Under the pieces are notes generated by a model, which saw nothing but the letters and a program-made list of their open reading frames with translations, was not told where the DNA came from and did no database searches. A DNA stretch of 64,000 nt from assembly GCA_030156945.1 (NCBI GenBank), contig JASGLT010000002.1, forward strand, positions 62,001 through 126,000, written 5' to 3'. This document shows positions 4,809 through 7,156 of this stretch, in pieces (position 1 is the first letter of the stretch; each line of letters begins with the position of its first letter). This DNA is from Thermococcaceae archaeon. Lineage in GTDB: Archaea > Methanobacteriota_B > Thermococci > Thermococcales > Thermococcaceae. Position numbers and translations under genes: made by a program.

Positions 4809-4973
4809 ATGCTCGTTGACATGCGAACGTTAAACATCCTAATCGGGATGAAGGGAAGGAGAAAAGCCATTCCTGGAACAGCTGAGAGGATGCTCGGCCG
4901 TCTTGAGGGTCTGTTGAAGGGGGAAGACAGCGTTTCCTTGCTCAAAAGACTGCGGGAGGAGGGTTATGATTAG
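4809..4973 (+). CDS. Small putative antitoxin preceding a PIN toxin
   Basis: A 54-residue basic protein beginning MLVDMRTLNILIGMKGRR and ending LLKRLREEGYD. GGTGGTGGG lies just upstream of its ATG, and its stop overlaps the start of the PIN-domain gene by eight bases, the layout of a VapBC-type pair. It has no recognisable ribbon-helix-helix or AbrB fold. The second half (about residues 24-52) is predicted helical, like the toxin-wrapping part of VapB antitoxins. The assignment rests on position, size and coupling, not on homology. Confidence 0.6.
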   Translation: MLVDMRTLNILIGMKGRRKAIPGTAERMLGRLEGLLKGEDSVSLLKRLREEGYD

Positions 4974-5424
4974 AGCTTTTATAGACACCAACGTTCTCCT
5001 CAATGTGTGGTTTAAGGAAATCGATCCTAGAACATCAAGACCACTCTGGGAGGCCTCACTTCGTGTTCTTAAACTCGTTGAGGGAGGTAAAATTGAGGGT
5101 ATAGTTTCCATCTTTACAATCATGGAGTCGGTGCACGTTTTTAGGAGGAAAGGTGCAGACCCAAAAATAGCCCAGAGCGATATTCAAGATCTTGGTCTTG
5201 AGGTTTACATCCCTGAAATTCCTGCATTGCTAGACGCCCTTACATACCAGCTTGAGCTCGGGATTGACCCTTACGATGCCGTTGCCCTTTCCTCAGCAGT
5301 TAATTCCAACTGTGACGTTCTGATTACCAGAGACGAAGAATTTAAAAAGAGGGGGAAGAGTGTGATCAAAATAGTGAGTCCTGAGGAATTTCTCTCTTAT
5401 CTCGAGGAGCGTGGGCTTCTGTGA
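4966..5424 (+). CDS. PIN-domain ribonuclease toxin (VapC-like)
   Basis: A 152-residue PIN domain. The acidic metal-binding residues are visible as D7 (FIDTN), E54 (IMESVHV), D104 (DPYDAVA) and D123 (ITRDEEF), so the site looks intact. PIN toxins of this class cleave tRNA or rRNA and are held inactive by the protein encoded just upstream. The start overlaps the putative antitoxin gene by eight bases with GGGAGGAGGG as ribosome binding site, and its end overlaps the next gene by four bases (GTGA). The three genes therefore form one coupled unit. A role in RNA processing rather than as a toxin cannot be excluded. Confidence 0.83.
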   Translation: MIRAFIDTNVLLNVWFKEIDPRTSRPLWEASLRVLKLVEGGKIEGIVSIFTIMESVHVFRRKGADPKIAQSDIQDLGLEVYIPEIPALLDALTYQLELGIDPYDAVALSSAVNSNCDVLITRDEEFKKRGKSVIKIVSPEEFLSYLEERGLL

Positions 5425-5741
5425 GTGAAGAAATAGTGATCTCTCTTCCGAAAGGAAAGTTCAAAGCCCTAAAAGGGCGGGATATAGATGAACTTATCAG
5501 AGAAAACCTCCCGAAGGCTGAGGAAACTCTCAAGGCGGAGAGAGAAGAGCATCTGCGTGAGAAGATCAAAAAGCTCGAGGAGAAGCTGTCCGAAATAGAG
5601 GGCCAGCTGGATGAGCTGAGGGAGTTCTACGAAAAGGCAAAGGCCGATAAGGAGAAGTTCCTGACCGTGAGAGACGAGCTGAGAGAGGAGAACGAGAGGC
5701 TGAGAAAAGAGCTGGAGGAAAAGAAAGTTCACAAAACGTGA
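5421..5741 (+). CDS. Coiled-coil protein in toxin-antitoxin island
   Basis: A 106-residue protein. A short N-terminal beta-like stretch (EEIVISLPKGKFKAL) is followed by a heptad-rich coiled coil from about residue 35 to 103, dense in Glu, Lys, Leu and Arg. It starts with GTG overlapping the PIN gene stop. The N-terminus resembles short antitoxin or DNA-binding modules, but no family is identified. Its last codons run into the operator array that precedes the MNT gene. It may be an additional antitoxin or an adaptor; this is inference from context. Confidence 0.68.
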   Translation: MSEEIVISLPKGKFKALKGRDIDELIRENLPKAEETLKAEREEHLREKIKKLEEKLSEIEGQLDELREFYEKAKADKEKFLTVRDELREENERLRKELEEKKVHKT

Positions 5742-5787
5742 ACGAATCGTTCATGGAGCGTGAACGAAAAGTTCATAAACCATGAAC
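5727..5787. promoter_or_regulatory. Six-half-site operator array, 11-bp period
   Basis: Six 6-bp half-sites alternate in orientation and are separated by exactly five bases each: GTTCAC (5727), GTGAAC (5738), GTTCAT (5749), GTGAAC (5760), GTTCAT (5771), ATGAAC (5782). Adjacent half-sites form inverted repeats, and the 11-bp period places all of them on one face of the helix. A TATA-like element (TTCATAAACC, 5772-5781) lies inside the array about 25 bases before the ATG of the MNT gene at 5801. Binding would therefore block that promoter. The winged-helix N-terminus of the MNT protein is the obvious candidate ligand. Confidence 0.8.
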
Positions 5788-5800
5788 GAGAGGTACTACC

Positions 5801-6409
5801 ATGCACGAGCTGCTCTCAACACCCGAACGTGTGAGGATTCTCGAAGAAGTTCTGCCGAAGAGTACAGTGGGGGTAGAAGAAGTCGCGAAAAAACTAGACG
5901 TCAGCAAGGGTCTGGTCTCAAAGACCCTTCATCTTCTCTTAAAGCACGGGATCGCCGTGAAAAAGGGGAGAAAGTTCCACATCCTTGACACTCCCAAAAC
6001 TCGGGAGCTTAAGAGGTTTCTGAACTTCATTGTGCTTTCGGAGAGGCTCAACGGGCTCAAAGAAGACTGGATGCTCGGTCTTGGTGTTTACGGGAGCTTT
6101 GCCTCCGGAGAGAACAGGGAAGACAGCGATATTGACGTTTGGGTGTTCGCTAGGAGAGAGGAACTATTAAAGTCAGCAAGGCTAAAGAGGAAAATCTCCG
6201 AGCTTACGGGCAGAGAAGTTGATCTGATAGTTTTAACGCCGCCGAGGGTTTCAAGGCTCCAAAAAGAGGACCCTGTCTTTTACTATTCCCTCGTCTACGG
6301 CTCGATTGTTATATGGGGTGAGAGACTTGACAGGATTCAGTCTTTGCTTAGAGCGGGGTCTGCTGAGAAGAGTTCCACCTTCCAGAGAGAAAGCGTTGCT
6401 GAGCATTAA
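5801..6409 (+). CDS. Winged-helix minimal nucleotidyltransferase (MntA-like antitoxin)
   Basis: About 202 residues with two domains. Residues 1-65 form a winged helix-turn-helix (VEEVAKKLDVSKGLVSKTLHLLLKHG). Residues about 85-165 form a minimal nucleotidyltransferase with the motif GSFASG (from G98) and the metal ligands D110 and D112 (DSDIDVWV); a further acidic residue lies in VDLIVL. MNT proteins inactivate a partner HEPN ribonuclease, in known cases by adding AMP to a Tyr. The fused DNA-binding domain makes autoregulation through the adjacent operator array likely. GAGAGGT lies six bases before the ATG. It overlaps the HEPN gene downstream. Confidence 0.87.
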   Translation: MHELLSTPERVRILEEVLPKSTVGVEEVAKKLDVSKGLVSKTLHLLLKHGIAVKKGRKFHILDTPKTRELKRFLNFIVLSERLNGLKEDWMLGLGVYGSFASGENREDSDIDVWVFARREELLKSARLKRKISELTGREVDLIVLTPPRVSRLQKEDPVFYYSLVYGSIVIWGERLDRIQSLLRAGSAEKSSTFQRESVAEH

Positions 6410-6764
6410 GAGGGCCGAAGAGTGGCTGGAAGAGGCCAAGAGGAACAGAGAGTTCGGCTCATACAGGACTTCCCTAATGGCCTCCTACCTCGCGATGTTT
6501 CATGCTGCCAGAGCAGTGCTTTTCCGCGACGGGTGGCGGGAGAAAAGCCACTACTGCGTCGCAAGGTACCTTGAGGAGTCCTATGTGAAAACGGGGAAGC
6601 TTGAGGAGTACTGGGTAGAGCTCCTCGACAGGATGAGAGAACTCAGGCACGAAGATCAGTACGACGTCTCGTACACTCCCGAGCCCACTGAAGTTGAAGA
6701 GGCCCTTAAAGTCGCTGAGAAGTTTATTGAAGTCATAAAGTCTTTCATTGGTGAGGAACAATGA
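6327..6764 (+). CDS. HEPN-domain ribonuclease toxin (HepT-like)
   Basis: A HEPN-domain partner of the preceding MNT gene. The core helix EEWLEEAKRNREFGSYRTSLMASYLAMFHAARAVL is followed by the catalytic HEPN motif in RMRELRHEDQYD (R-x5-H, with a nearby Tyr as in AMPylated HepT toxins). The start is uncertain. A long frame opens at 6306, but a TTG at 6327 has GGGGTGA five bases upstream; a later TTG at 6396 would still keep the whole domain. It overlaps the MNT gene 3' end by about 80 bases. The next coiled-coil gene begins four bases inside its stop (ATGA), making a three-gene operon. Confidence 0.85.
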   Translation: MTGFSLCLERGLLRRVPPSREKALLSIKRAEEWLEEAKRNREFGSYRTSLMASYLAMFHAARAVLFRDGWREKSHYCVARYLEESYVKTGKLEEYWVELLDRMRELRHEDQYDVSYTPEPTEVEEALKVAEKFIEVIKSFIGEEQ

Positions 6765-7156
6765 AGCTCATCATTAAACCCGAAAAAGGCCTTGGGAAGA
6801 TAGAGGTCGAGCTTTCTGAAGAAGTTGGGGGAGAGGTAAAGAGGCTGAGTGAGCGTTACGGAGTTCCTCCCGAGAGGGTTATCGAGGTTGCCCTCACTGG
6901 TGAGTTCAGGGAACCTAAGGGAGACCTTGAAGAGCTTGAGAGAAAAGTGAAGGAACTTGAAGAGAAGGTCTGGGAGCTGGAGAAGGAGTATGCACCGCTC
7001 CGCTTCAAGGCCTACGGACTGAGCGAGGACAACAAAATCCTCGCCATTGAACTCACTGGCTTGATAGCCGAGAACAACCAGCTAAGGCGTTTTTTGAAGC
7101 TTCCACTGAGGCGAGATCCGGAACTGAGAAAGCTTATATCCTATTACATGAGATGA
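6761..7156 (+). CDS. Coiled-coil protein, third gene of MNT/HEPN operon
   Basis: A 131-residue protein with an N-terminal region like a compact DNA- or protein-binding domain (VELSEEVGGEVKRLSERYGVPPERVIEVALTG, helix-turn-helix-like), then a coiled coil at about residues 50-75 and a second helical part (LIAENNQLRRFLKLPL). It is translationally coupled to the HEPN toxin gene. MNT/HEPN loci are normally two-gene systems, so a conserved third member would be notable. Function is unknown; an extra antitoxin or targeting subunit is a guess from position. Confidence 0.7.
   Translation: MKLIIKPEKGLGKIEVELSEEVGGEVKRLSERYGVPPERVIEVALTGEFREPKGDLEELERKVKELEEKVWELEKEYAPLRFKAYGLSEDNKILAIELTGLIAENNQLRRFLKLPLRRDPELRKLISYYMR

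Follow-up and report, generated by a model that had tools for sequence, protein, structure and literature searches.

Gene content and half-site array of the locus

The window, a stretch of 64,000 nucleotides from a Thermococcaceae archaeon, contains a gene for a nucleotidyltransferase of the MNT type with an N-terminal winged helix (wHTH-MNT), a HEPN gene that overlaps its end and, upstream of both, an array of short alternating half-sites (Table 1).

Table 1. Features of the locus, with positions counted from the first letter of the window.
Feature	Position	Strand	Description
Optional VapBC-like pair	4809..5424	+	54-aa ORF and PIN protein, same locus
coil1	5421..5741	+	coiled-coil protein
Putative operator array	5727..5787	.	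half-sites at 5727, 5738, 5749, 5760, 5771 and 5782, 6 bp each, 5-bp spacers
TATA-like TTCATAAA	5772..5779	+	within half-site 5; candidate promoter element
wHTH-MNT antitoxin	5801..6409	+	winged helix aa 2-61, linker helix 65-86, nucleotidyltransferase aa 91-172
HEPN toxin ORF	6306..6764	+	Pfam HEPN PF05168, E=8.6e-25; PADLOC PDC-M05B; overlaps MNT end
coil2	6761..7156	+	ribbon-helix-helix-like N-terminus (by eye) and coiled coil

The nucleotidyltransferase domain of MNT is recognised by Pfam (NTP_transf_2, E=2.3e-10) and carries the active-site motif GS(x10)DxD, with G98, S99, D110 and D112 invariant in A1. The winged helix is weak in Pfam (HTH_20, 2.6e-4, under the cut-off). AlphaFold models it with a mean pLDDT of 91, with helices at residues 8-17, 25-32 and 36-48, the last being the recognition helix, and wing strands at 52-55 and 58-61, which bears out the sequence-only reading that MNT has a winged-helix domain of its own. 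The top PDB matches in Foldseek are MntA/MNT antitoxins (7bxo, 7aer, 6m6u and 8xeo), the MntA chains 7bxo, 6m6u and 8xeo of HepT/MntA systems being the nearest solved folds.

The MNT gene lies directly upstream of a HEPN-domain gene and encodes the GS...DxD motif, as in HEPN-MNT (type VII) toxin-antitoxin systems, where MNT neutralises the toxicity of HEPN by AMPylation. The two adjacent genes also match PDC-M05 in PADLOC, as M05A (E=4.6e-10) and M05B (5.4e-9). Against the NCBIfam MntA equivalog NF047752, MNT scores 40.6 bits with a cut-off of 60; it is a relative of that equivalog and not a named member. The true start of HEPN probably lies within its ORF, and its stop overlaps the start of coil2, a core gene of Thermococcaceae (93 of 94 genomes) of which most genomes have a second, more distant copy. 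The VapBC-like pair (4809-5424) and the HEPN-MNT module (5801-6764) are independently optional on the two sides of coil1 at this Thermococcus locus.

Six alternating GTTCAY/RTGAAC half-sites with invariant 5-base spacers, spanning 61 bp, had been described upstream of MNT, and this was confirmed letter by letter: the half-sites read GTTCAC, GTGAAC, GTTCAT, GTGAAC, GTTCAT and ATGAAC, and the spacers aaaac, gaatc, ggagc, gaaaa and aaacc. The period is exactly 11 bp (5/5 spacers of 5 bp), comparison of each half-site with the reverse complement of the next gives 6, 5, 5, 5 and 6 matches out of 6, and their variation is confined to position 6 (C/T). The array begins, as was also claimed, in the 3' end of the preceding gene, the TGA stop of the coil1 ORF falling within half-site 2, and it overlaps a candidate TATA box, given that half-site 5 contains TTCATAAA. 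As read from the letters, this element lies approximately 26 bp upstream of the MNT start codon at 5801 and is preceded by GAAAA, a possible BRE. Between half-site 6 and the start codon there are 13 bp, a distance kept in nearly all Thermococcaceae copies of MNT-A, the family of the window gene, and of its paralogue MNT-B.

A strict three-half-site pattern (GTTCAYN5RTGAACN5GTTCAY) was found in 43 of the 101 genomes searched, every one in the genus of the window, while its reversed control had no matches in these genomes. When approximately 2000 stretches of 200 bp were taken at random from the window, none reached an 11-bp array score of at least 15/18, and 0.8% reached at least 14. From these two results it is clear that the array is not a product of chance.

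Conservation of the array beside winged-helix MNT genes

When the same array was sought beside orthologous genes in Thermococcaceae, all 21 MNT-A copies, including the degraded pseudogene L041, had six half-sites, with no more than two core substitutions per array. A lack of conserved spacing upstream of homologous genes had been set beforehand as the outcome contrary to the proposal, and it did not occur. Across the MNT-A-positive genomes the arrays carry 1 core change versus 47 spacer changes. In the g28 genomes G105, G107 and G111 the module is found at an unrelated locus, apart from coil2, and the array is present beside it there.

The paralogous family MNT-B (~47-51% identical) is located between the SAM-hydrolase and NadM genes, and all eight copies have a four-half-site array of the GTTCAA/TTGAAC type with the 11-bp period of MNT-A. 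At this locus PIN-type and HEPN-MNT modules are likewise optional, and in several genomes (L170, L176, L160 and similar) a PIN-type gene upstream of NadM shares its 3' coding end with the B-type array.

Homologues drawn from genome contigs and other archaeal genomes were divided into close (HMM score >100 bits) and distant (<100 bits), and four alternating half-sites were scored at periods 7-16 against dinucleotide shuffles. For close homologues outside Thermococcaceae, period 11 was the best of ten in 18 of the 19 testable cases and reached p<=0.01 in 17. These values are indicative, since relatedness among the sequences makes the p-values count more independent cases than there are. Two homologues deviate: L219 gave p 0.15, and L398 was best at 14 with p 0.052 at 11, although six 11-bp sites can still be laid out in the latter. 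These homologues, from Bathyarchaeota, Methanomicrobia, other archaea and one Dictyoglomota bacterium, have 4-6 half-sites at the 11-bp period in different letters (GTTTCT, GTTCCC, GTTTAT, ATTCAT, GTCCGA, GTTTAA), and in Bathyarchaeota the start codon lies in the last half-site. In a held-out set, all five close homologues were best at 11, three of them significantly, and about half of the distant ones were best at 10.

Indeed, the arrays of distant homologues are often at 10 bp (e.g., L408, L412, L413 and L429), and L426 has a perfect 11-bp array. For roughly half of the distant wHTH-MNT homologues, three in Thermococcaceae (G115, G118 and G133) among them, no significant array was found. The apparent 11-bp array of L423 contains the tRNA-like GGTTCGAATCCCAC and was discounted. 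A HEPN partner was confirmed by Pfam at seven of ten distant loci, with two borderline and one unseen. Of 20 standalone MNT genes without a winged helix, 19 were testable, and none of these had an array of 10-bp or 11-bp period that reached p 0.01; the nearest of them, L450, which may have an N-terminal extension, gave p 0.015 at 10 bp.

The letters of the half-sites vary together with the recognition helix. Among 22 arrays, the more two recognition helices differ, the more their half-sites tend to differ (Mantel r 0.57, p 2e-4), and the correlation is kept when the rest of the domain is taken into account (partial Mantel r 0.49, p 4e-4). By eye, Arg41 accompanies C at position 5 in L215-L218, Lys41 a pyrimidine at position 6, and Leu, Thr or Ser41 an A or G at position 6, the latter in MNT-B and in the only distantly related L403/L404. 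This residue-41 rule was derived from the same data, so that only held-out cases count as tests; in the held-out L461, which has Arg41, C is at position 5 in three of four sites.

Arrays in genomes lacking MNT and alternative readings

In approximately 26 Thermococcus genomes that lack MNT-HEPN, half-sites 1-4 are still present at the end of coil1 and before coil2, in a few of them with one substitution or indel. Half-sites 5-6 and the TATA-like element are missing from these alleles, and the junction of the four half-sites to coil2 is near-identical among the loci L001-L020 and L355-L358. A similar series is seen at the NadM locus, where B-type arrays persist in several MNT-B-less genomes. 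MNT-B was considered as the keeper of the A arrays in MNT-A-less genomes and rejected, given that it is absent in most of them.

In the outgroup genera g27, g29, g30 and g31, coil1 overlaps or abuts coil2, the module is absent and no array was found at coil1-coil2, which indicates that the array arrived with the module and that the four-site arrays are post-loss alleles. Contraction (G022, G028, G057), decay (G045, G047, G050, G055) or absence of the array occurs only in MNT-less genomes, as is expected if MNT is its reader. Four MNT-less clades combined show 0 core versus 13 spacer changes. A plain neutral relic does not account for such strictness; recurrent recent loss, recombination or the presence of a second reader would.

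It is fairly probable that the MNT-less arrays are purely relics of lost MNT-HEPN modules, their good preservation being due to frequent recent losses or to allele swapping by recombination, an account that is compatible with autorepression by MNT. Tips with and without MNT are interspersed in the locus tree, and the locus is a mosaic, coil1 and the four shared half-sites being identical in G012 (with MNT) and G014 (without) and the flanking genes 85-95% so. A deep MNT-less clade has decayed arrays (6 core versus 2 spacer changes), which, together with the absence of the array in the outgroups, also favors relics. Nonetheless, the near-identical deletion junction across all MNT-less alleles and the strictness in several MNT-less clades argue against this account.

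The same persistence of A and B arrays where MNT is missing, and the clades with no core change, would also fit a site for a different, core regulator of coil1-coil2 (and of SAM hydrolase-NadM), beside which MNT-HEPN was inserted. This is, however, improbable. The outgroups carry coil1-coil2 with no array, in g28 genomes the array is found with MNT at an unrelated locus, homologues elsewhere bear their own arrays, and the arrays decay, contract or disappear only where MNT is missing, half-sites 5-6 and the TATA-like element being lost from those alleles. Furthermore, among core wHTH proteins only a 150-aa ArsR-type protein resembles the winged helix of MNT, and it was rejected as the binder because it has GTACAG-type palindromes of its own, which are conserved upstream of its gene (L081 (G000:C52), L082-L086).

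That the repeats act in RNA, as GUUCAY-N5-RUGAAC hairpins that control translation or serve as a HEPN target, or that in MNT-less genomes present the coil2 Shine-Dalgarno GGAG in a loop, is highly improbable: any adjacent pair can make a 6-bp stem with a 5-nt loop, and most MNT-less genomes have GGAGY as loop 3, but hairpins do not need an exact 10/11-bp period between all half-sites, C-A mismatches occur at position 6 in the RNA sense (GTTCAC...ATGAAC in G021, G040 and G105), the arrays have a promoter position, with 13 bp left between them and the start, and the letters covary with a DNA-recognition helix.

A plasmid origin was rejected, tblastn of three queries against 72,556 plasmids giving no match. 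In viral contigs, matches to a 15-base pattern were mostly chance-like. The one multi-site case is a 94-kb contig with two GTTCA/TGAAC half-site clusters at 11-bp period (L228:4389-4469), beside which no MNT or HEPN gene is evident.

Predicted autorepression and relation to known systems

Given that the array moves with the gene, that the array of the paralogue is respelled, that the spacing is conserved, that the letters follow the helix and that wingless MNT genes have no array, there is strong support for the array belonging to the MNT winged helix. Judged by sequence comparison, it is very probably the operator of the wHTH-MNT/HEPN operon, cooperatively bound and autorepressed by MNT. Every winged-helix dimer of the antitoxin would occupy one 17-bp inverted repeat, GTTCAY-N5-RTGAAC. 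The next dimer would lie 22 bp, about two helical turns, further on and therefore on the same face of the DNA, where cooperative binding is possible. The bound dimers would cover BRE/TATA and repress antitoxin and toxin together. The recognition helix would read the half-site letters, with residue 41 as the specificity switch, and HEPN may also play a part. The earlier suggestion that antitoxin and repressor are combined in one chain is thus strongly supported by the comparison, with binding, repression, cooperativity and any filament themselves standing as predictions.

In HEPN-MNT (HepT/MntA) type VII systems, such as SO_3166/SO_3165, MNT likewise comes first and HEPN second, and the GS(x10)DxD motif is shared. 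The promoter of SO_3165 contains two dissimilar palindromes and is bound and repressed by SO_3165 itself (PMC4621449). Published accounts of known MntA proteins give them no DNA-binding domain (PMC7641770), whereas the MNTs compared here have a fused winged helix and, as predicted operator, 4-6 half-sites in helical phase. The window MNT matches M05A of PDC-M05 (M05A nucleotidyltransferase and M05B HEPN) over residues 4-165, winged helix included. In the available part of its source, PDC-M05 is a candidate defense system, archaea-enriched and of unconfirmed antiviral role, for which that part describes no operator (PMC12988326).

There is also a likeness to the type IV system AbiE, in which the antitoxin of a nucleotidyltransferase-containing system binds DNA and is autoregulated at inverted repeats, as predicted here. 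AbiEi autoregulates with positive cooperativity, and AbiEi-type antitoxins also with negative (PMC7319586). AbiE has, however, one or two pairs of 23-bp inverted repeats, AbiEi and the AbiEii nucleotidyltransferase are separate chains, the nucleotidyltransferase is the toxin and there is no HEPN RNase partner; in the window, winged helix and nucleotidyltransferase form one chain and the partner is HEPN. The literature searched, outside which most subscription journals lie, contained no account of phased arrays in HEPN-MNT systems.

More speculatively, winged-helix MNTs might share an operator grammar, with alternating half-sites locked in register at 11 bp in one branch and 10 bp in another, with a simple residue-41 code and with the antitoxin polymerizing on the array, possibly bridged by HEPN, in which case occupancy could report the modification state of the toxin; we consider this broader picture possible but rather unlikely. 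The comparison brings together a large fused wHTH-MNT subfamily whose candidate operator can be recognized in several lineages of archaea and in one bacterium. Its helix-to-half-site code is readable and directly testable, and the array provides a sequence signature for locating such modules and their relics.
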